Notes under the pieces: generated by a model | What the model was told of the DNA's origin: nothing | The model's input: the letters and a program-made list of their open reading frames with translations, nothing else | Database searches by the model: none | Position numbers and translations under genes: made by a program | In this document: piece after piece, positions 6,575 through 47,310 of the stretch | How the letters are laid out: every line of letters starts with the position of its first letter | Position numbering within the stretch: the first letter of the stretch is position 1 | DNA from: a virus | Virus record (IMG/VR): IMGVR_UViG_3300001242_000003 | Location: 1-63,296 of that record | Direction: 5' to 3' (one strand) | Length of the DNA: 63,296 nt

Positions 6575-7168
6575 ATAAGAACTTTTGGCGAAAGAATAAA
6601 TAGTCAGGAAGAGCTTTTAAAGAGACTAGCTGATAAAATAAAAAATGATACACGTAATGCAATGCCAGGTATTATACAGTCGTTTGACCCTGACGAACAG
6701 ACGGTTTCTGTTCAGCTTGCAATTCGTGAAAGAATAAGAGACGGTGAAGGTAGAATGGAATTTGTTAATTTGCCGCTTTTGTTAGATGTGCCAATTTTAA
6801 TGCCGAGAGCTGGCGGATACATAGTAACTATGCCAGTAAGTAAAGGCGATGAATGCCTTGTTGTTTTTGGCGATATGTGCATTGATGCTTGGTGGTCAAA
6901 TGGCGAGGTGCAAAATCAAATAGAAAAACGTAGGCATGACCTGTCAGATGGATTCGCTATTTTAGGACCATGGAGCCAACCTAATAAAATACAAAATTAT
7001 AGCACTGATTCCGTTCAGTTAAGAACTGAGGATGGAAATACATATATTGAAATAAAACAAAATGAAATAAATATAGTAGCTTCAGTATTAAAAATCAATG
7101 GTAATGATTTTGTGCAACATACGCATTCAGACCCACAAGGTGGCTTTACTGGTCCAGTAATAATCTAG
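6575..7168 (+). CDS. Baseplate spike protein (Gp138/gpV-like), apparent AUA start
   Basis: The first canonical start (ATG 6662) would lose a conserved N-terminus. The reading frame is open back to TAG 6572, and the residues right after it (RTFGERINSQEEL) are typical of the Gp138-type N-terminal domain. The codon in the start position is ATA 6575, placed four bases after AAGGGCGTGAT, a near-perfect ribosome site. The product is about 197 aa with an OB-like domain (GIIQSFDPDEQTV, DECLVVFGD) and a C-terminal histidine motif (HTHSD), and it would form the membrane-piercing spike on the hub. Confidence 0.75.
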   Translation: MRTFGERINSQEELLKRLADKIKNDTRNAMPGIIQSFDPDEQTVSVQLAIRERIRDGEGRMEFVNLPLLLDVPILMPRAGGYIVTMPVSKGDECLVVFGDMCIDAWWSNGEVQNQIEKRRHDLSDGFAILGPWSQPNKIQNYSTDSVQLRTEDGNTYIEIKQNEINIVASVLKINGNDFVQHTHSDPQGGFTGPVII

Positions 7169-7181
7169 GTGGTGATAATAA

Positions 7182-7544
7182 ATGATCTATAGGGAGCTTG
7201 ATTTAAACGGCGATTATACCTTTGGAAAAAATATGCAGAATTTTATTAGCGGAGCAGCTGCGGTAGCTCAAGCTATTAAAACTAATTTACTTCTATTAAA
7301 AGAAGAATGGTGGGAAGACACTGAAGAAGGGCTTCCTTTATTTCAGAATATAATTGGGCAGAAATTTTTTGCTGACGGGAATATACAATCAGCAGATTTA
7401 ATTATTAAAGATCGTATCGCAAATACGCAGGGGGTTTTAACTATTATTGGTTATAATAGTATGTATGACAATCGTAAACTCTCAATTTCTTGTACAGTTA
7501 TAACTATTTTTGGTGAATCTGCTTCTGTGGAGGTGAGTTTTTAA
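7182..7544 (+). CDS. Baseplate wedge protein, gp25/DUF2634-like
   Basis: A 120-aa protein between spike and baseplate J genes. FISGAAAVAQAIKTNLLLLKEEWWED and GLPLFQNIIG match the gp25-type wedge family (lysozyme-like fold without the catalytic site), which initiates sheath polymerisation. AGGTGGTGATAATAA precedes the ATG. It overlaps the start of the J gene by one base. Confidence 0.8.
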   Translation: MIYRELDLNGDYTFGKNMQNFISGAAAVAQAIKTNLLLLKEEWWEDTEEGLPLFQNIIGQKFFADGNIQSADLIIKDRIANTQGVLTIIGYNSMYDNRKLSISCTVITIFGESASVEVSF

Positions 7545-14066: not shown

Positions 14067-14110
14067 AAAGCACAAGTTGAGTTAAAACTTTTCTTGTGCT
14101 TTAATTATTT
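14067..14110 (+). terminator. Intrinsic terminator of the lysis operon
   Basis: AAAGCACAAG (14067-14076) pairs with CTTGTGCTTT (14093-14102), 10 bp, 16-nt loop, followed by AATTATTTTG. Confidence 0.8.
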
Positions 14111-14170: not shown

Positions 14171-14365
14171 ATGCAACAATACGCTAGGCCAATAAATTTA
14201 AGGTTAACCGAAAGGCAGTTTAAAGAATGTTTAGAAAACGGCGGGGTGTCAACTTATGTTAGATGGCTGATTGACCAAAGCATAGCGACCAAATACTCGT
14301 CAGTTTGTAGTAGTAAAAGAATAATAAAGGCTGTGGATGAAAGAAGGTTAGAGTGTGGCTATTAA
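14171..14365 (+). CDS. Small ribbon-helix-helix-like protein
   Basis: A 64-aa basic protein. INLRLTERQF followed by VSTYVRWLIDQSI has the spacing of a ribbon-helix-helix DNA-binding domain. It has its own GGGAGG site and lies between two terminators. The leader contains the direct repeat GTAATACA (two copies around 14134-14154), a possible binding site. It precedes the conjugation-like module and may regulate it. Confidence 0.6.
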   Translation: MQQYARPINLRLTERQFKECLENGGVSTYVRWLIDQSIATKYSSVCSSKRIIKAVDERRLECGY

Positions 14366-14389
14366 ATGTGTTGTTAACACATTTTATTC
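14365..14389 (+). terminator. Hairpin/terminator after the RHH-like gene
   Basis: AAATGTGTT (14365-14373) pairs perfectly with AACACATTT (14377-14385) around GTT and is followed by TATT. The T tract is short, so it may also be an operator. Confidence 0.6.
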
Positions 14390-14439
14390 ACACAGATTCT
14401 TATTTATTCCTATTTTAGTCTTTAGAGAGGAGAATATTT

Positions 14440-14790
14440 ATGGGAATTAAAAATAAGCTTAGTAAAGTTGGTTGTTTAATTGCTAACCACCTAGAAAGTA
14501 ATAAAAAACTTTACCTAGGTATTGGTTATTCAGTAGTTGTTGCTACTTTGTTTGATCCTAGCATGTGTTTTGCAGGAATTGAAGATGGTGGTAGAAGAAT
14601 ACACTCAAAAATAGTTTCAGTTGGTAAGTGGGTTATAATTATTAAGGGTAGTATTGATACAATTCAAGCTGTGTTAAATGGCGACTTCCCAGCAGCTAAG
14701 AAATTATTTTTTAGTTATTTATTATGCTTTGCTATAATGTTAGGTTTACCATGGGGAATGGATGAAATTGAGGGGGTATTCAAACAGTGA
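14440..14790 (+). CDS. Small membrane protein with signal peptide, VirB2/TrbC-like topology
   Basis: A 116-aa protein. A signal-like segment (LYLGIGYSVVVATLF) ends in a possible cleavage site MCFA|G near residue 45, followed by two membrane segments (VGKWVIIIKGSI and FFSYLLCFAIMLGLPW). That layout is like small pilin or TrbC/VirB2-type conjugation proteins, although no sequence motif proves it. It has a GAGAGGAG site and overlaps the next gene by 4 bases, so it is translated together with the ATPase gene. Confidence 0.6.
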   Translation: MGIKNKLSKVGCLIANHLESNKKLYLGIGYSVVVATLFDPSMCFAGIEDGGRRIHSKIVSVGKWVIIIKGSIDTIQAVLNGDFPAAKKLFFSYLLCFAIMLGLPWGMDEIEGVFKQ

Positions 14791-14996
14791 AAGAAGCGTT
14801 TAAGGAAGCTATTATTGAGTTGCTTTTACAAGCGTTTAGTGCTGTTACTCATTGGTTGGTAAGTGTCAGTTATAGCGCAGCTTTAATAGGCGGAGCCATT
14901 TCGGTGTTGTTGTATGTTGCTGGCTGGCCTAAAGGAATGCGTTGCGTGGGTATTTTAGTGGTTGTTCATGTAGTATTTAGAACAGTTTTTAGTTAG
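14787..14996 (+). CDS. Small two-span membrane protein (VirB3-like position)
   Basis: A 69-aa protein with an amphipathic start (MKEAFKEAIIELLLQ) and two hydrophobic segments (AALIGGAISVLLYVAGW and GILVVVHVVFRTVF). The start codon, GTG, overlaps the previous stop. In type IV secretion operons a tiny VirB3/PrgI-like protein often stands just before the large ATPase; here the resemblance rests on size, topology and order only. Confidence 0.6.
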   Translation: MKEAFKEAIIELLLQAFSAVTHWLVSVSYSAALIGGAISVLLYVAGWPKGMRCVGILVVVHVVFRTVFS

Positions 14997-15007
14997 GAGT
15001 GAATAGA

Positions 15008-17359
15008 GTGAAGTCAATTAAATTTAGTGATGTTGTTAAGGTAGTGTATCCTGAATATGTGTATTTTAAATTAACGCCTGACAATTCAGCAAGAAATAAT
15101 TCTACTTACAAAATAGCTAAAACGATTAGTTCATTGTATAAAAATATTTTGCATAATGTTAAACGGGAGCAAGCAAAGGTTATTAAATTAACTGGCATTA
15201 AAAAGGATTTTTTATTTGGTACGAAATATTCAATTATGTTAAATCATAAAACTTCTTATTATATATATATTGAAAAACAAAAAATTGAGTTTTATTTTAT
15301 AGTGCCTAGATATTGTTTAAGCGTTATGTCGGAAAAGCTTAATGATGTTTGGCCAAATATTACTATTAGTGAGGTAAAAGAAGTTCCTGCATTTAGTGAA
15401 AAAGCTACCAAGCACCAACTCTTTTATAATAAAGAGGACGGCTTGAGCTTATCAGTTGACCGTAGGGCAAATGAATTGCTGGAAAGTAATCTTAATATAG
15501 TAGATGTTTTACATGATGGTGATAAAGTTGGTATATTTTATAACTTTATGCCGATATCGCAGTTTGGTTGGAAAGCTCAGTATAGGTCGACATTAGAAAA
15601 AGTCTCTAAGAGCTTGCCTGTTGAGCGTAATAAGTTAGGGCTAAGTTACTTGCTCAAGTCAGCTTTTGCGCTTGTTTATGGGCTTCTGAATAGCCTTGGT
15701 GAAGCTTTTGCTGGTGCTACTCCGCACATGTTGACTAAAGGAAATGAATTATTGTTTTTAGAAACCTTAAAGCAATTTAATGATAGCAAGAAAGTTTCAG
15801 ATGCAACAATTAAGAAAGGAAATGATATAGTTTTAAATACTCAAATATTAGTGCTAAGTGAAAGTTCCGATGAGGTTAGACAATTAAACAATGCAAAAAG
15901 CTTAGCACAAAGTTTTGATGCAGTAACTGAAGATAACAGCTTGATTTATAAGCAAACTTATAAAGATTTTAAGCCATTAAGTTTTTCACTAGGAACCGAA
16001 ATAAATAAAGTAAGTTCAGTTGAATGCTCAAGCTTTATAGCTTTGCCTGGTAAGGAATTGTTAGAAAAGTATTCATGTATAAATAAAATAAAAACGCAGG
16101 AAACACAGGTACCGGAAGAGCTTCAACATGGTGTTATGTGTTTAGGAGTTAATACGTTTAAAGGCAACAAACAATTAGCTTATTTAAGTACAGATTTTGA
16201 TTACCAGATGTTAAGTTTAGTCTTAATTGGGCCTAACCGGGCAGGTAAATCAAAGTTTTTGGCTAATATAGCTAAGAATGCTATTGATGAAGGAGAATGT
16301 GTAATACTGCCGGACTTTATAGGAAGTTGCCAGCTTAGTTCAGAGATAGCTAGTTGTATTGACAAAAGTAAAGTCCTTGAAGTGTATTGTGATAACTGGG
16401 ATACTTTACAAGGGCTTGGTTTTAATGAAGTTCCGCATAGTAATAATCCGTTCGTGCAATATAAAAATGCTAAGGAACAAACTGCCTTATTAATGACCTT
16501 AGTGGATAGTATAAACTCAGATGATGCTAATTTCACAGCTAGAATGGGACGGTACTTTGAAGCTGCAAGTTTAGCAGTATTTTTATCAAATGGCAGTATA
16601 AAAGATGTATTCGCAGTATTAATGAATAACAATGTTAGACGTGAATTTATAAATAAAATACCAAGCTCCCAAAAGGAAAATATGAAGGAGTATATCGAAT
16701 ACCTTTTAGAACTAAATCATATCGAAAAAGGTGTAATAGTAGGTACTAAAATACATTTGATCACTGGAGCAGTTGATAGGCTGCAAAAACTTAAAGTGAA
16801 TGCTTACTTAGAGTTAATGCTTAAAAAGGGTACAAAAGGCAATATTAATTTAGTCAAGGAAATGCAAAAGAATCAGCTTATTGTGATTAAAATGCCACAG
16901 AGAATGTTTCTAACTGATAATGAAAAAGATGTATATGTAACATATTGGTTAACGAAATTGTGGCTTGCCTTACAAATACGTGAGGAGCAGGTAGGGAATA
17001 GAAACAAATTGATTAAGGTAAACATGATAATTGATGAACTTTATCAAGTAAACAACGCTGAAAAGTTTCTTACTAAGAAACTAAGCCAGCTTCCTAAATT
17101 TAACCTAAAACCTATAATAAGTTGCCATTACTTAAATCAAATTAGATTCATTAGAGAAGAATTAAGAAGCGCAAACGCCAGTTATATGCTGATTGCGGGG
17201 TGCGATAAAAAGAACTTTAGTGAACTACAAAGTGAGCTTTACCCGTATACAGAGAATGATTTGTTAAGTTTGCCACGTTACCACAGCTTAAATCTAATTA
17301 AGTGTAATGACGGATATGGAAAATTTATAACGCATTTGCCAAAGCCACTTTCAAAATAA
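15008..17359 (+). CDS. VirD4/TraG-HerA-type P-loop ATPase
   Basis: About 783 aa, starting at GTG 15008 six bases after AGGAGTG (GTG 14999 lies inside that site). It shows Walker A GPNRAGKS near residues 408-415, Walker B VNMIIDE near 671-677 and a downstream ISCHYLNQ segment, the signature of the FtsK/HerA branch that includes T4SS coupling proteins and VirB4. The N-terminal 330 residues form a domain I cannot name. A packaging role is unlikely because a normal large terminase is present. It is probably membrane-associated through the two preceding proteins. Confidence 0.75.
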   Translation: MKSIKFSDVVKVVYPEYVYFKLTPDNSARNNSTYKIAKTISSLYKNILHNVKREQAKVIKLTGIKKDFLFGTKYSIMLNHKTSYYIYIEKQKIEFYFIVPRYCLSVMSEKLNDVWPNITISEVKEVPAFSEKATKHQLFYNKEDGLSLSVDRRANELLESNLNIVDVLHDGDKVGIFYNFMPISQFGWKAQYRSTLEKVSKSLPVERNKLGLSYLLKSAFALVYGLLNSLGEAFAGATPHMLTKGNELLFLETLKQFNDSKKVSDATIKKGNDIVLNTQILVLSESSDEVRQLNNAKSLAQSFDAVTEDNSLIYKQTYKDFKPLSFSLGTEINKVSSVECSSFIALPGKELLEKYSCINKIKTQETQVPEELQHGVMCLGVNTFKGNKQLAYLSTDFDYQMLSLVLIGPNRAGKSKFLANIAKNAIDEGECVILPDFIGSCQLSSEIASCIDKSKVLEVYCDNWDTLQGLGFNEVPHSNNPFVQYKNAKEQTALLMTLVDSINSDDANFTARMGRYFEAASLAVFLSNGSIKDVFAVLMNNNVRREFINKIPSSQKENMKEYIEYLLELNHIEKGVIVGTKIHLITGAVDRLQKLKVNAYLELMLKKGTKGNINLVKEMQKNQLIVIKMPQRMFLTDNEKDVYVTYWLTKLWLALQIREEQVGNRNKLIKVNMIIDELYQVNNAEKFLTKKLSQLPKFNLKPIISCHYLNQIRFIREELRSANASYMLIAGCDKKNFSELQSELYPYTENDLLSLPRYHSLNLIKCNDGYGKFITHLPKPLSK

Positions 17360-17381
17360 GTGGCATATTTTTTTGAAAGTG
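17343..17381 (+). terminator. Terminator with alternative 12-bp hairpin
   Basis: GCCACTT (17343-17349) pairs with AAGTGGC (17357-17363) and is followed by ATATTTTTTT. The same bases can instead form CCACTTTCAAAA (17344-17355) with TTTTGAAAGTGG (17370-17381), a perfect 12-bp stem. Confidence 0.8.
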
Positions 17382-17437
17382 GTTTATATTTTATACTAGA
17401 TAGCTTTAAATATGACTCACTTATTTTAAATTTGCTA

Positions 17438-17466
17438 TTTACAAACAAATTATTTTATGTTATAAT
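17438..17466 (+). promoter_or_regulatory. Sigma-A type promoter P2 (replication operon)
   Basis: CTATTTACAAA context with TTTACA 17438-17443, 17-bp spacer, TATAAT 17461-17466. It lies 70 bases before the first gene of the replication and modification operon. Confidence 0.8.
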
Positions 17467-17535
17467 TGTTATTAGCTTATTTAATATGTTTTTAATAATA
17501 GTAAACAAGAAATAGTAACAAGGAGGTACAATATT

Positions 17536-20197: not shown

Positions 20198-20540
20198 AAA
20201 AAATGGATTAACTAATATTTTTAATCAGCAAGCTGCATTTCAAAAGCTTATAACTTCAATTGATTTGCCTAGCGATAATGTCGTTTGGTCATCGTATCAT
20301 ATTTTAGGACTTCAGGAAGAAATTGGCGAAGTGCTTAAAGCAGATAAACGCTGGAAAACTCATAGAAATGCAGCATATGATCCTGAAAACAAATTAGATG
20401 AAATAGTTGATTGTTTTATAACGCTTGTTAATATAGCTTTGTTTTCCGGGTTTGGTTCGCAAGAAATTTATAGTGCTATTGAAAATAAAATTAAAGAGAA
20501 TGTCGAAAGGTTGGATGATAGTGATGGAGAACAACAATAG
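20163..20540 (+). CDS. MazG-like all-alpha NTP pyrophosphohydrolase
   Basis: About 125 aa, starting at ATG 20163 six bases after GGAGG (ATG 20187 is an alternative). The metal-binding motifs EExxE (Glu52, 53, 56) and ExxD (Glu80, Asp83) define the MazG/dimeric dUTPase/T4 dCTPase superfamily, which hydrolyses (d)NTPs to (d)NMP and PPi. It overlaps the carbamoyltransferase gene. In this context it could remove dCTP so that modified cytosine is used and dCMP is supplied. The substrate is inferred from context. Confidence 0.8.
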   Translation: MLKMAETRMIGKKNGLTNIFNQQAAFQKLITSIDLPSDNVVWSSYHILGLQEEIGEVLKADKRWKTHRNAAYDPENKLDEIVDCFITLVNIALFSGFGSQEIYSAIENKIKENVERLDDSDGEQQ

Positions 20541-22305
20541 CGAAAAGTTTTATCTTGGTATTAGCTTAGGGTTTAATTCTTCGGCTTGCGTTATGTCAAA
20601 TAAACGTGGTTTGATAGCAGCTGTTTCACAAGAAAGGTTATGTGGAATTAAGAATACGAAAGAGTTCCCGGTTGATGCGATAATTGAATGCATCAAATTG
20701 GCTAAAGCTCCTTTTAGTTATAAATTTGATGTTGGTATAAGCCATTACCAGCATATAACAGCGGAAAATATTTACAAGTATCTGCCGGAAAAATATAAAG
20801 ATTATATGGGAACTTTTCATAATGTTTGTTTATTCGGCCTTGATTATGTTGAAGATTGCCTAAAAGCCTTGGCTTGCGTTTTAGTAAATTCAATAGTCAG
20901 GGTTGAACATCATACAGCTCATGCTTATGCAGCTTTAGTCATGCATGGCAAAGATGCAAATATGTCGGATGATAGAAATATATTTGTTACTTGTGATGGT
21001 TTTGGTGACGGAACCAGCGGAAGGATAGTGCTTGGCTCCGGTGAGGTGCTTGCTAGTTTAAGGCTAGTTGATAGCGTCGGATTGTTTTATCAGTTTGTAA
21101 CTGGAGCTTTGGGTTATAAAGAACATCAACATGAAGGTAAAATAACTGGCTTGGCTGCGTTTGGTAAGCCAATTTATGTAGAGAAGTTAGTCGAAGTATA
21201 TAGCCAAATGTTATCAGTCGATTTAAGTAAAGAGCAAAGCTCAGAGGTAAAAGCGAGTAATATTGAAAACTTTAATTTATTTTTACGCTTAAAAGATAGC
21301 ACTTATAAGCTAGTTAATTGCTTGCTTGGTAGCGGAGCATTGCCGGAGGATATTGCTGCTTCGGTTCAATTCTTTACTGAAATGGTAATAATTAATTGGC
21401 TTAATAGCACTATTGAAAAATACACTAAAAAAACTATTAATTTCCCTTTGTTTAATGTGTATTTTTCAGGCGGGCTTTTTGCAAATGTAAAACTTAATCA
21501 AAAGATTCATGCTTTACCTTGGGTTGAAAATATTTATGTATGTCCAGCAATGGGTGATGAAGGAACTTGTATTGGTGCAGCTTTTCACGCTATGAAAGAA
21601 AAAATAGGTATGGAAGTTATAGAAGCTAATAGCTTTCTAAAGCATCAGGTTAGCCCGTATCTGGGAACAAAGCATGAATATAGTGCAGAGCAAGTAATAT
21701 TGGAATTGGCTAATTTAAGAGCTTCTGAAAGTGTTTGTGTACATGAGCTTGAAGATGCACAACTTATTAATTGCATTGCTAAACATCTTACGAATAAGAA
21801 AATAGTTTGTTTATTCCGTGGCAGAATGGAATTTGGTCCAAGAGCGTTAGGTAATCGGTCAATACTTTATCATTGCACGGACCGAACAGTTAATATGTGG
21901 CTAAATGAACAACTTGGTAGAACTGAATTTATGCCGTTTGCTCCGATATGCAAAATGGAAAATGCTGGGGCTTTATTTGACAAAATTGGCGCTGAGCAAA
22001 CAGCGGAATATATGACAATAACATTTAATTGCTCAGATGAATTCAAAAATAACTATCCAGCAGCCTGTCATATAGATGGAACTGCCAGACCGCAGTTAGT
22101 AACGAAAGAAGCTAATAGATTTATGTGGAACTTATTGGACAAGTATGAGTCAATTTCATGTCAGAAAGTCCTAATTAATACTAGCTTTAATTTGCATAAT
22201 TTTCCTATCATTGAAAGCCCTGAGGATGCAATTCAAAGTTGGTTTGATTCAAATACTGATGTATTAGTAATAAATAATGTAGTCATAGAGAGGATGGTAA
22301 AGTAA
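20524..22305 (+). CDS. NodU/TobZ-type carbamoyltransferase
   Basis: A 593-aa enzyme. The N-terminal Kae1-like domain shows the metal motif HxxxH (His129, His133), Asp158 in CDGFGDG, and Asp345 in GDEG. The C-terminal domain has the family signature FRGRMEFGPRALGNRS (431-446) and a late VLINTSFN. The family forms carbamoyladenylate from carbamoyl phosphate and ATP and moves the carbamoyl group to a hydroxyl. Phage members are known to carbamoylate 5-hydroxymethylcytosine. It sits between MazG and the dCMP hydroxymethylase-like fusion, which strongly suggests DNA base modification. GTG 20521 is an alternative start. Confidence 0.92.
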   Translation: MENNNSEKFYLGISLGFNSSACVMSNKRGLIAAVSQERLCGIKNTKEFPVDAIIECIKLAKAPFSYKFDVGISHYQHITAENIYKYLPEKYKDYMGTFHNVCLFGLDYVEDCLKALACVLVNSIVRVEHHTAHAYAALVMHGKDANMSDDRNIFVTCDGFGDGTSGRIVLGSGEVLASLRLVDSVGLFYQFVTGALGYKEHQHEGKITGLAAFGKPIYVEKLVEVYSQMLSVDLSKEQSSEVKASNIENFNLFLRLKDSTYKLVNCLLGSGALPEDIAASVQFFTEMVIINWLNSTIEKYTKKTINFPLFNVYFSGGLFANVKLNQKIHALPWVENIYVCPAMGDEGTCIGAAFHAMKEKIGMEVIEANSFLKHQVSPYLGTKHEYSAEQVILELANLRASESVCVHELEDAQLINCIAKHLTNKKIVCLFRGRMEFGPRALGNRSILYHCTDRTVNMWLNEQLGRTEFMPFAPICKMENAGALFDKIGAEQTAEYMTITFNCSDEFKNNYPAACHIDGTARPQLVTKEANRFMWNLLDKYESISCQKVLINTSFNLHNFPIIESPEDAIQSWFDSNTDVLVINNVVIERMVK

Positions 22306-23820
22306 ATGCCGTATTTAAAAGTTAATTCAGTAACAGAAGCTTTTAGCTCGGTTGTTGCACTTTTGGAAGCAGAAGGTTTTGAAACTGCCCCTAGAGGAAT
22401 GAAAATAAAAGAAGTGCTTAATTGTTGTATTGAAGTAACTAATCCCCGGGATAGAATTGTACAAAATCCTGAAAGGCAAATGAATTTTTCTTACGCTGTT
22501 GGCGAATTGCTTTGGTATTTAAGCGGGCGCAATGATGTAGGTACTATGGAGTATTATTCAAAGAAAATGGCTAATTTTTCAGACGATGGTAAAACATTAA
22601 ATTCAGCTTATGGCCATAGAATTTTTGGTAATAATGCTAAGATTGGCTTTAACCAATGGGAACATGTAAAGCAACAGCTTATTGCCGATCCGGATTCACG
22701 GCAAGCAATAATTCATTTGCATACTCCAAATAACCAGAAAACAAAAGATGAAGTTTGCACGTTAAGCTTGCAATTTTTGCTCAGGCATGGTAAACTAAAT
22801 CTTATTGTTAATATGCGCTCAAATGATATTGTGCTTGGCTTTACGTACGATGCTTTTGCGTTTACTATGTTGCAGGAAATTATGGCAATTGAACTTGGCG
22901 TTGAATTAGGAAGCTACTTCCATAATGCTGGAAGTATGCACATGTATGAGCGTGATTTTAATACTTATAGTAAAATAACTTATAAAGTTAATTCAATGCC
23001 GATGTTGCCGCTGAACATGGTTTTAACGGATTTTGATCGCTTAATTGATTATGAAGCTTTTTGCAGGGATTTTAATAATAGTTTTAAAGAAGTAATTGAT
23101 TATACCACCTCAATGTTAGTTGCAAGTAAAAATAGTAATGAAAGAATATTTATGATTTCTTTAGCTATTTGGACAGTTATACGGCGCGGATATAGTTTCG
23201 CTTGTACTAAATATGTTAATAATTTTATTAATATAAGCCGCAGAATTGATGAGCGCTTTGCAGATATTCTTGCAGCAGGAAATAGTGTTTTTACTAAGAA
23301 CGATTTTAAAGTAATAATTGAAGGTGTAGATGCTAGTGGTAAAACATCTTTAGCGAACGCTTTAGCGCTTAATATTAATGGCTTAGCTTTATCAATACAG
23401 CATTATGACGCACCAACTAAAAACTTTGCTTTTTATTCAGCGTATAAAAGCGCCTTACAAAGTAAAGTTAGCACTATATTTGATAGGTTCTTTTTCTCAG
23501 AAATTGCCTATTCAAAAGCTATAGGCAAAGAATGCAGAATTAACGAAGTTAGGCAAAACTTGCTCTTAGGTATTATTTCAATATCTGGTTTTGTATGCGT
23601 TTTCTTTGTGTTTAATGACTTAGAGCTTGATTTGGTAATAAGCCGAATGGATGCTAAAGATTATGATAAATATGTTAAATCAGGGCTTATTTACAAAATT
23701 AATAGTGCTTACAAAGATCTTTGTGAAAGGGCTGAAAGGCATGGTTGCAAGGTGATAAAAGTAACTAAAGCTAATTATGATGTTGAACAAGTTATTGAGC
23801 AAATTAAAGGAGCTTTATAA
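22306..23820 (+). CDS. dCMP hydroxymethylase-like enzyme fused to P-loop nucleotide kinase
   Basis: A 504-aa fusion. Residues 1-300 are a thymidylate-synthase fold: Glu67 in GELLWYL, catalytic Cys151 in DEVCTLS, RSND (171-174) and His212/Tyr214 (MHMYERD). The residue eight after RSND's Asp is Asp182, where dUMP-specific TS has Asn; Asp is diagnostic of dCMP hydroxymethylases such as T4 gp42. Residues 330-504 are a thymidylate-kinase-like domain with Walker A EGVDASGKTS (339-348) and DR at 393-394. It would make 5-hydroxymethyl-dCMP and phosphorylate it. The ATG follows the carbamoyltransferase stop without a gap. Confidence 0.88.
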   Translation: MPYLKVNSVTEAFSSVVALLEAEGFETAPRGMKIKEVLNCCIEVTNPRDRIVQNPERQMNFSYAVGELLWYLSGRNDVGTMEYYSKKMANFSDDGKTLNSAYGHRIFGNNAKIGFNQWEHVKQQLIADPDSRQAIIHLHTPNNQKTKDEVCTLSLQFLLRHGKLNLIVNMRSNDIVLGFTYDAFAFTMLQEIMAIELGVELGSYFHNAGSMHMYERDFNTYSKITYKVNSMPMLPLNMVLTDFDRLIDYEAFCRDFNNSFKEVIDYTTSMLVASKNSNERIFMISLAIWTVIRRGYSFACTKYVNNFINISRRIDERFADILAAGNSVFTKNDFKVIIEGVDASGKTSLANALALNINGLALSIQHYDAPTKNFAFYSAYKSALQSKVSTIFDRFFFSEIAYSKAIGKECRINEVRQNLLLGIISISGFVCVFFVFNDLELDLVISRMDAKDYDKYVKSGLIYKINSAYKDLCERAERHGCKVIKVTKANYDVEQVIEQIKGAL

Positions 23821-36402: not shown

Positions 36403-36761
36403 GAAAAGTAGATATTAAAACAGTTTGCAAGTATAATGGCCATAGTATTAAAGCAAATGAGGCAGTTGATCTCTCATTGAAGTTCGGATATGATCAACTT
36501 GTAAACTACATACAATTGGTTCAGCTGTTGAATGAAAATATTAATATTATTTCAAAAATAGGCGATAGCAAGCCTATAAAGCTTGGAATATATACGCTGA
36601 AAGAAGTTAAGATTGATAATGACGGTGAAGCGGTTATAAAGTTTAATAGTACACTTAGCTATGTAGAAGCTGACAATTTAAACAAGTTAGCTGGTGAGAT
36701 GCTTAAAGTGCGCTTTAAGGCTGACGTAGAAATAGAAAATGATGGAGAGGATGAAGATTGA
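36390..36761 (+). CDS. Hypothetical protein (123 aa)
   Basis: GTG start overlapping the previous gene. It is acidic at the end (EIENDGEDED) with alternating strands and helices. No family recognised. It overlaps the ThyA start by 4 bases, so these genes are co-translated. Confidence 0.6.
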   Translation: MAEVRKVDIKTVCKYNGHSIKANEAVDLSLKFGYDQLVNYIQLVQLLNENINIISKIGDSKPIKLGIYTLKEVKIDNDGEAVIKFNSTLSYVEADNLNKLAGEMLKVRFKADVEIENDGEDED

Positions 36762-37588
36762 GCAAAGCTGATAATATGTTCATTAAAATGTGCAGGGATA
36801 TTCTTTCAAATGGAATTAGCTCAGAAGGTGAACAGGTAAGGCCAAAATGGGAGGATGGAACTTCAGCTCATACTATTAAAAAGTTTTGTGTTGTTAACAG
36901 GTATGACTTATCAAATGAATTTCCTATACTTACTTTAAGGCCTACTAATTTAGAAGCTGCAATTGACGAACTGCTTTGGATATGGCAGAAGAAATCAAAT
37001 AATATTAAGAATCTTGGCAGTAGTATTTGGGATAGTTGGGCTAATGAAGATGGCTCGATAGGAAAAGCGTATGGATATCAGTTGGGTATTAAGCATGAAT
37101 ACCCAGAAGGATTATTTGACCAAGTTGACAGAGTATTGTATGATTTAAAGCATAATTCCTATAGTAGAAGGATTATAGTGAATATGTACAACCACAATGA
37201 CCTACATGAAATGAACTTATATCCTTGTGCATATAGTATGACATTTAATGTTACCGGTAAGAAACTTAATGCGATACTAAATCAGCGATCACAAGATGTT
37301 TTAGTTGCAAATAACTGGAATGTATCCCAGTACGCTATATTAATTCATATGTTCGCACAAGTAAGCGATCTTGAAGTTGGCGAATTTGTTCATGTTATTG
37401 CCGATGCTCATATTTATGATAGGCATGTTCCGCTTGTGAAAGAGCTTATTCAGAGAACTTCATTTCCAGCTCCGAGACTAAAAATAAATGTAAGTGTAAA
37501 AGATTTTTATCAATTTAAAGTAGATGATTTTATGCTTAAAGATTATAAGCACGGAATGCAGATTAAAAATATTTCAGTAGCTATTTAA
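36758..37588 (+). CDS. thyA: Thymidylate synthase
   Basis: A 276-aa ThyA, TTG start. Conserved sites: Glu71 (DELLWIW), catalytic Cys157 (NLYPCAYS), QRSQD (176-180) and Asn188, the Asn that binds the uracil ring of dUMP, then ADAHIYDRH. It methylates dUMP with methylene-tetrahydrofolate. The Asn contrasts with Asp182 in the TS-like part of the fusion at 22306, so the two paralogues should use dUMP and dCMP respectively. The C-terminus ends with the usual Ala-Ile type residues. Confidence 0.92.
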   Translation: MSKADNMFIKMCRDILSNGISSEGEQVRPKWEDGTSAHTIKKFCVVNRYDLSNEFPILTLRPTNLEAAIDELLWIWQKKSNNIKNLGSSIWDSWANEDGSIGKAYGYQLGIKHEYPEGLFDQVDRVLYDLKHNSYSRRIIVNMYNHNDLHEMNLYPCAYSMTFNVTGKKLNAILNQRSQDVLVANNWNVSQYAILIHMFAQVSDLEVGEFVHVIADAHIYDRHVPLVKELIQRTSFPAPRLKINVSVKDFYQFKVDDFMLKDYKHGMQIKNISVAI

Positions 37589-46002: not shown

Positions 46003-46014
46003 GAGGTGTGTTTT

Positions 46015-47310
46015 ATGTCTGTAGAAGTTGTAAAGAATATAGTTAGAGCTGTACTTTTCTTTGTTGCTTTTTCTCTGAAACAAAAGAAAATATTAACTTG
46101 GTGGACAGATGAAAGTCCTTATAAAGATTATAATGGTATTATAGCAGATGGAGCCATAAGAGCTGGTAAAACAGTTCCTATGGCTCTTTCATTTGTATTC
46201 TGGGCTATGGATACATTTAATGGCCAGAACTTTGCTATGTGTGGTAAAAGTATAGGAGCATTTAACAGAAACGTCTGGGCATGGCTAAAGCCAGTACTTA
46301 AGATACGAGGTTATAAGATTAAGGAAGTAAGAACAGGACCTGACAGACGGGTTGATATAAGCTTTAAAGGGCATACAAATCACTTTTATATATTCGGCGG
46401 GCAACACGAAAGCAGCCAAGATTTAATACAAGGTATAACGCTGGCTGGCATATATTTTGATGAAGTTGCGCTTATGCCTGAAAGCTTTGTTAATCAAGGT
46501 ACTGGACGTTGCAGCGTTGAAGGTGCTAAAAGTTGGTTTAACTGTAATCCGGATGCGCCGTTGCATTGGTTTAAAGTAAATTGGTTAGAAAAAGCAAAAG
46601 AGAAAAAGCTCTTGCATTTACATTTCACGATGGATGATAATCCTAGTCTTAGTGAGAATGTTAAAAATAAATATAAATCAATGTATTTTGGAGTATTCTT
46701 TAAGCGTTTTATTCTTGGTTTATGGGTTATAGCCGAAGGCGCTATTTATGATATGTGGTCAGACGAAGAAAATTTGTTTAACGATGAGACTGCTCCGCTT
46801 GGTTTAAAACAAATAGCCAGGCGCTCAATAGCAATAGATTATGGTACTACAAATCCAATGGTATTTCTTGATATTTGGGATGATGGTAAAACGTGCTGGC
46901 AAATAAACGAATACTATTATGACAGCAAGGAAAAAGGCATACAGAAAACAGATTCGCAGTATGCTGATGATCTTGTAGAATTTATCGGTGATGACATGCC
47001 AGATGATATTATTCTTGATCCTTCCGCTGCAAGTTTTAAAGCTGAGCTTAGACAGCGAGGATTTAGGGTTAAGGATGCTGATAATGAAGTTAGAGATGGT
47101 ATCAGTATAGTATCAACTATGTTGGGGCTTAGGCTTTATAAAGTGCATGAAAGGTGTATGATGACACGCTCAGAAGTAACTTCTTATACTTGGGATGATA
47201 AAGCTCGTGAGCGTGGTGAAGAAAAGCCGCTTAAAATAAAAGATCATACCATGGATGCAAAGCGTTATTTTTGTAAAACTAAGATAAAAGCATGGAGGCT
47301 AATAGCTTGA
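46015..47310 (+). CDS. terL: Terminase large subunit
   Basis: A 431-aa packaging motor starting at ATG 46015 behind GAGGTG. Walker A DGAIRAGKT near 44-52 and Walker B GIYFDEVAL near 145-153 belong to the ATPase; IDYGTTNPMVF near 272 and ILDPSAASF belong to the RNase H-fold nuclease. It resembles PBSX/Terminase_3-6 type enzymes. It pumps DNA into the prohead through the portal encoded next. Confidence 0.93.
   Translation: MSVEVVKNIVRAVLFFVAFSLKQKKILTWWTDESPYKDYNGIIADGAIRAGKTVPMALSFVFWAMDTFNGQNFAMCGKSIGAFNRNVWAWLKPVLKIRGYKIKEVRTGPDRRVDISFKGHTNHFYIFGGQHESSQDLIQGITLAGIYFDEVALMPESFVNQGTGRCSVEGAKSWFNCNPDAPLHWFKVNWLEKAKEKKLLHLHFTMDDNPSLSENVKNKYKSMYFGVFFKRFILGLWVIAEGAIYDMWSDEENLFNDETAPLGLKQIARRSIAIDYGTTNPMVFLDIWDDGKTCWQINEYYYDSKEKGIQKTDSQYADDLVEFIGDDMPDDIILDPSAASFKAELRQRGFRVKDADNEVRDGISIVSTMLGLRLYKVHERCMMTRSEVTSYTWDDKARERGEEKPLKIKDHTMDAKRYFCKTKIKAWRLIA

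Follow-up and report, generated by a model that had tools for sequence, protein, structure and literature searches.

What would two small membrane proteins and a large ATPase, arranged much as in a conjugation system, do for a phage of lytic type? The question is raised by positions 14440-17359 of IMG/VR record IMGVR_UViG_3300001242_000003, analysed here over positions 1 to 63,296 (this whole stretch is hereafter the window). An earlier note on this DNA had read the locus as a conjugation-like module with a VirD4/TraG-HerA ATPase, new to such phages. The answer that we favour, with moderate confidence, is a phage-encoded mini-translocase derived from type IV secretion, located in the host cytoplasmic membrane and accessory to growth.

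Gene content and layout

PHROG scans of the window called genes for TerL, portal, head protease, baseplate and endolysin, and also for a family A DNA polymerase, a primase, a UvsX-like recombinase and two thymidylate synthase-like proteins; the module sits with the lysis unit before it and the genes for DNA replication after it. Neither a tyrosine integrase nor a serine resolvase was found in the window, which bears out the lytic type assumed in the earlier note, and the predicted gene content fits a lytic phage. A nearest-phage search at the DNA level with the window gave no match. The named hosts of close relatives are Bacillota, except for L052, a 3,094-base record titled Bacteroidales UBA8529 whose small-gene region is almost identical to that of viral contig L062 and which is probably a mis-binned phage contig. 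Elsewhere in the window, a carbamoyltransferase-like gene (by motif; 20452-22305), a thymidylate synthase-like/kinase-like gene (22306-23820) and the second thymidylate synthase gene (36758-37588) possibly encode a modified-thymine pathway.

Table 1 Features of the module and its borders in the window
Feature	Position	Strand	Basis
Intrinsic-terminator-like hairpin, end of lysis (endolysin/holin-like) unit	14067..14102	+	inverted repeat; RNA fold -18.7 kcal/mol, z -4.9
RHH-like (ParR/ParG/CopG type) small DNA-binding protein, 64 aa	14171..14365	+	homology
Imperfect palindrome between RHH gene and operon	14354..14394	.	arms 14354-14372 / 14376-14394, 79% complementary
VirB2/TrbC-like membrane protein, 116 aa	14440..14790	+	topology, conserved upstream position
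69-aa membrane hairpin, VirB3-like position	14787..14996	+	HMM of relatives, topology
VirB4-like P-loop ATPase, 786 aa, PHROG 5156	14999..17359	+	PHROG profile, predicted structure
Intrinsic terminator over ATPase stop codon	17344..17364	+	RNA fold -10.4 kcal/mol, z -3.2

The three trio ORFs are almost contiguous (the first two overlap by 4 bases, and 2 bases separate the second from the third), and since relatives keep the trio in full they are not chance ORFs; the tight operon of two small membrane proteins and a large ATPase is confirmed by ORFs, spacing and conservation alike. Its closing terminator is confirmed as well (Table 1). The hairpin that precedes the RHH gene is the stronger of the two structures and cuts the lysis genes off from the module. 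A 51-aa ORF at 17360-17515, whose start falls inside the closing terminator, is probably outside the module. All three trio proteins are under purifying selection: against relatives, pN/pS is 0.17-0.24 for the ATPase gene and 0.31-0.42 for the first small gene (with one dN/dS of 0.17), and dN/dS is 0.13-0.39 for the hairpin gene. The true start of the ATPase is likely the GTG at 15008 (783 aa), nine bases past the ORF start, because AGGAG lies about 8 nt upstream of it and the resulting N-terminus, MKSIKFSD, agrees with those of relatives.

The ATPase

The ATPase carries a Walker A motif GPNRAGKS and a Walker B motif MIIDE, and residues 5-769 match PHROG 5156, a family of unknown function, with E 4.6e-85. 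Pfam gave weak matches alone for the window protein, to AAA_14 and to TrwB_AAD_bind. TrwB_AAD_bind matches 19 of the 43 ATPase family members (best 5.5e-6), and the window protein reaches E 0.037 with it, under the cut-off. The window protein has no match to the VirB4 models PF03135, PF19044 and PF12846 (CagE_TrbE_VirB, P-loop_TraG, AAA_10), which are likewise absent among the families listed for the 43 members. No membrane span was predicted in the protein, N-terminal anchor included.

The structure model, built from the 43 sequences (pLDDT 84.6), points to VirB4. The top six Foldseek matches in the PDB are all to R388 VirB4/TrwK at full length, with E from 1e-12 to 8e-11 and some 900 columns aligned; in VIA comparisons of residues ~360-786 the Z scores are 27.3 for VirB4 (4ag5), 25.3 for DptH, 24.7 for TrwB and 23.6 for HerA. 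R388 VirB4 aligns with model residues 17-786 over 540 pairs at Z 19.6 and an rmsd of 11.7, with a different arrangement of domains. The ATPase thus shares with VirB4 (R388 TrwK, Thermoanaerobacter VirB4 4ag5) the predicted full-length fold, the C-terminal ATPase domain, the lack of a membrane anchor and a gene position after virB2- and virB3-like genes; it differs in being about 10-14% identical, in escaping the VirB4 Pfam models and in belonging to a record without VirB6/B8/B10. On the modelled fold and gene position it appears VirB4-like, and it is not filed as VirB4 proper because the VirB4 Pfam models fail to recognise it. The trio order is likened to virB2-virB3-virB4, which it resembles, because the predicted ATPase structure best matches conjugative VirB4 and not VirD4 or the motors of packaging or repair.

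The earlier note had named VirD4/TraG as the specific relative, and this part did not hold. The C-terminal ATPase domain does resemble that of the type IV coupling protein VirD4/TrwB, but the window ATPase is without its N-terminal membrane spans and is longer at the N-terminus by about 360 residues; the case for VirD4 as the nearest kind is weakened, the full-length structure favouring VirB4. The HerA-type assignment stands insofar as the protein falls in the VirB4/HerA clade. A packaging ATPase was also considered and is rejected: the PHROG match is to 5156, of unknown function, and not to a terminase, the predicted fold matches VirB4, and packaging is covered, as the earlier note had said, by a TerL encoded elsewhere (46006-47310). 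The ATPase does not group with a replication family either.

The small membrane proteins and M23 fusions

The 116-aa protein has a long N-terminal extension, a hydrophobic signal-like helix ending in MCFA-G and then a two-helix hairpin. The prediction of a signal peptide, two hydrophobic helices, a short loop and about 70 mature residues is the arrangement of VirB2 pilins. Its description as a signal-bearing VirB2/TrbC-like protein is upheld by topology and gene order but not by Pfam, whose pilin models (TrbC, T4SS_pilin) match none of the 30 listed members of its family. The family profile was negative against the pilin-like gp150 of phage G and against the 031MP004 protein; against the SPP1-like clade the N-terminal motif alone aligned (E 5e-5). 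A fold search with the predicted model returned generic helical PDB matches only, all with Z under 8, and does not prove that the protein is a pilin.

In relatives, a homologue of the 69-aa hairpin forms the membrane domain of fusion proteins with an M23 endopeptidase (E 7e-7 with an HMM without the window in its seed); the VirB3 Pfam model gave E 0.19, under the cut-off. In each of 26 homologues the central loop of the hairpin carries a net positive charge, and both ends are therefore predicted outside the membrane, so that M23 domains fused at either end would both place the enzyme on the outer side. Such fusions to M23, a peptidoglycan endopeptidase, are found with the domains in one order or the other in many relatives, among them most of the window-clade loci, and Pfam M23 matches 14/26 family members (best 3.6e-29). 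In the window clade M23 is C-terminal in L054, L076, L078, L079 and L081, N-terminal in another set, and encoded by a separate gene beside the trio in L050. N-terminal fusions are also present in the SPP1-like clade (L028, L029, L030, L032, L037, L043), in phage MMB025 and on a plasmid of Alicyclobacillus dauci. The M23 catalytic motifs are kept in nearly all fusions, L047 having lost one of them. No M23 was found in the window.

Distribution and described counterparts

An alignment-based scan for the window protein gave 30 viral and 7 genome loci. The VirB2-like and hairpin genes lie directly upstream of the ATPase, in the same order, at 35 of the 35 listed window-clade loci, which take in the window and a few near-identical contigs, and more divergent equivalents of the trio are present in the SPP1 clade and other Bacillota phages. 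The homologues of the small proteins are the same trio elsewhere, not unrelated proteins, and the search for the trio in other elements suggested by the earlier note shows it recurring in many Bacillota phages, SPP1, SPO1 and phage G included. By tblastn the ATPase was placed in phages of Bacillus, Geobacillus, Lysinibacillus, Alicyclobacillus and Terrisporobacter and in one Microcystis phage, the matches including SPO1 gp27.4, TP-84 and GBK2. Scans that started from the Terrisporobacter and 031MP004 proteins returned no relatives, and PDB sequence searches with A3 and A4 gave nothing useful.

SPP1 gp31.1-gp31.2-gp32 are homologues of the window trio. With gp31 they follow the same order (RHH, VirB2-like, membrane hairpin, ATPase), which is also carried by contig L024 (very likely SPP1). 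SPP1 gp32 (836 aa) is without a membrane span, as is the window ATPase, to which it is about 20% identical; SPP1 is a different phage with its own DNA polymerase. In the 2018 re-annotation of SPP1 the C-terminus of gp32, the part alone compared, was found to resemble TrwB, VirB4 and FtsK; gp32 was proposed to form a trans-membrane translocon with gp31.1 and/or gp31.2, and GBK2 was noted to have the same genes (PMC6316719). The region is under the early promoter PE5, and the inversion mutant SPP1invmir, in which 31.2 is disrupted and 32 promoterless, is viable, so that 31.2 and 32 are non-essential (PMC6316719). The statement that such a module had not been described therefore does not stand: the translocon idea is already known, and the window trio adds a member to a kind that is as yet a prediction. 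No other papers on the phage module were found in the literature covered, preprints and most subscription journals being outside its scope; the paper on 0305phi8-36 mentions neither secretion nor conjugation.

Phage G gp156 belongs to the same PHROG family as the window ATPase (E 6e-207). It lies in a cluster, gp150-gp156, that is fuller than that of the window and adds a T4SS_pilin protein (gp150, 3.7e-6), a VirB6-like TrbL_4 protein (gp153, 1.8e-11) and a VirB4-like P-loop_TraG protein (gp155, 1.6e-15). The P-loop_TraG model matches phage G alone among the records of seven relatives, and alignment of the window ATPase profile with gp155 is confined to the Walker A region. The cluster occupies 3050-9415 of L015 (record positions about 86971-93336). 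PHROG 2666 ('terminase large subunit') is a further match of gp155 (E 5e-272), a protein that is VirB4-like by Pfam; the terminase label is a probable database mislabel. SPO1 gp27.4, considered together with gp27.3, is of the same ATPase family and has small membrane genes upstream. Unlike the window ATPase gene, its gene overlaps the one that comes after it, which encodes a Replic_Relax protein (2.9e-12), and an actin-like gene (2e-27) comes before it.

The RHH gene and partition-type neighbours

The RHH-like gene placed before the trio by the earlier note was confirmed by homology (HMM E 3e-18, the seed including the window), and the same profile is matched by SPP1 gp31-like proteins; the window protein alone has no Pfam or PHROG match. 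Its homologues precede the trio in many relatives, SPP1 included. The palindrome between this gene and the operon gives no significant RNA fold and is a possible operator. In L053, TGTTAAACA motifs are repeated around the upstream gene (6990-7300); these repeats and the window palindrome are possible candidate sites for RHH binding.

Of the 35 window-clade loci, about 10 have a gene for an actin-like protein (about 6) or for TubZ (4) close to the trio, and SPO1, PJN02, BboS-125 and D6E likewise have partition genes of actin-like type; the window has no match to actin-like ALP_N or to TubZ. TubZ-like tubulin genes are upstream of the trio in the Paenibacillus-type loci L048, L050, L069 and L070, and actin-like genes in L047, L049, L059, L073 and L077.

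A translocase and its alternatives

In the proposed mechanism, the VirB2-like protein and the hairpin would form a scaffold or channel in the membrane, with their termini predicted outside and a short loop inside. The ATPase, having no span of its own, would dock on the cytoplasmic side and drive a macromolecule across. We infer that the three proteins form a complex, that the ATPase is a hexamer and that transport is outward. What is carried may be either the DNA of the phage or an effector protein, and the device may serve for export, for transfer or for exclusion. The RHH protein may label the phage DNA for transport, or it may act as a regulator of the operon. In many relatives the hairpin-fused M23 would open the wall from the outer side, and it is from these fusions that we argue for transport across the envelope as a whole. 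In phage G, the pilin-, TrbL- and VirB4-like genes that accompany gp156 tie the family to transport. Against a translocase stand the lack of VirB4 or pilin Pfam matches, the negative comparison with gp150 and a window without M23. The absence from the record of VirB6, VirB8 and a separate VirD4 counts against a known complete channel: TrbL_4 has no match in the window, and no ORF with at least three spans lies outside the module. The earlier note's statement that the window has no relaxase holds for the three Pfam models searched (PF13814, PF03432 and PF02486), none of which matches, and because the record has no VirB6, VirB8 or relaxase the trio is not callable a conjugation system. What survives of the conjugation-like module is a membrane module that resembles type IV secretion, its ATPase being of the VirB4/HerA clade and not VirD4/TraG.

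The same parts might instead guard the envelope, the early membrane proteins, the ATPase and the wall enzyme of relatives blocking DNA injection by later phages. Membrane and wall-acting parts would suit such superinfection exclusion, the SPP1 trio genes are accessory and early, and exclusion is named by the SPP1 authors among the general roles of such early genes (PMC6316719). We nevertheless consider it unlikely: the phage G gene cluster points to transport, and a 786-residue VirB4-class motor far exceeds the needs of the known small exclusion proteins. Less probable again is a plasmid-style motor for DNA positioning or segregation, in which filaments of actin- or tubulin-like type would join the RHH protein and the ATPase in anchoring or pumping phage DNA at the membrane while it replicates or persists in episomal lysogeny. 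The filament genes near the trio and the RHH gene upstream of it in many relatives would agree with this, but the window has no such filament gene, the M23 fusions are left unaccounted for, and FtsK-like segregation requires no pilin-like subunit. Finally, the ATPase could be an antiviral or counter-defence protein of HerA type, for instance kin of MADS Mad8 or DptH, beside membrane proteins by chance. The PADLOC mad8 profile matches it at E 2.2e-6 (the mad8 gene alone considered), and the DptH C-domain is close in fold. Its N-terminal half, however, matches VirB4, the membrane partners are kept at all loci read, and most relatives have no nuclease, SIR2 or methylase gene directly beside it (MMB025 has one GmrSD-like neighbour); this reading seems very improbable.

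If the trio is indeed a translocase, DNA or proteins may leave infected cells before these lyse, and genes may be transferred, or cells act on one another, by a route that, within the literature found, has so far not been attributed to tailed phages. Given the M23 fusions, the vague label 'ATPase' gives way to a concrete hypothesis of whole-envelope transport, and the family, widespread and catalogued as of unknown function, is testable in Bacillus subtilis through SPP1 and SPO1. A more daring version, which we offer as a speculation with little expectation of its being right, is a relaxase-free conjugation-like machine in many lytic and temperate Bacillota phages that would pass phage DNA (or an effector) to neighbour cells without virions, the RHH protein marking the DNA and M23 opening the wall. 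The single-motor transfer of double-stranded DNA by Streptomyces TraB is a loose parallel.

A similar N-terminal motif, of ETIKW/F-D-F-F/M type, opens the VirB2-like proteins and also several of the ATPases (window 15008-15040; L004, L014, L019, L046), and it is perhaps a shared docking signal.
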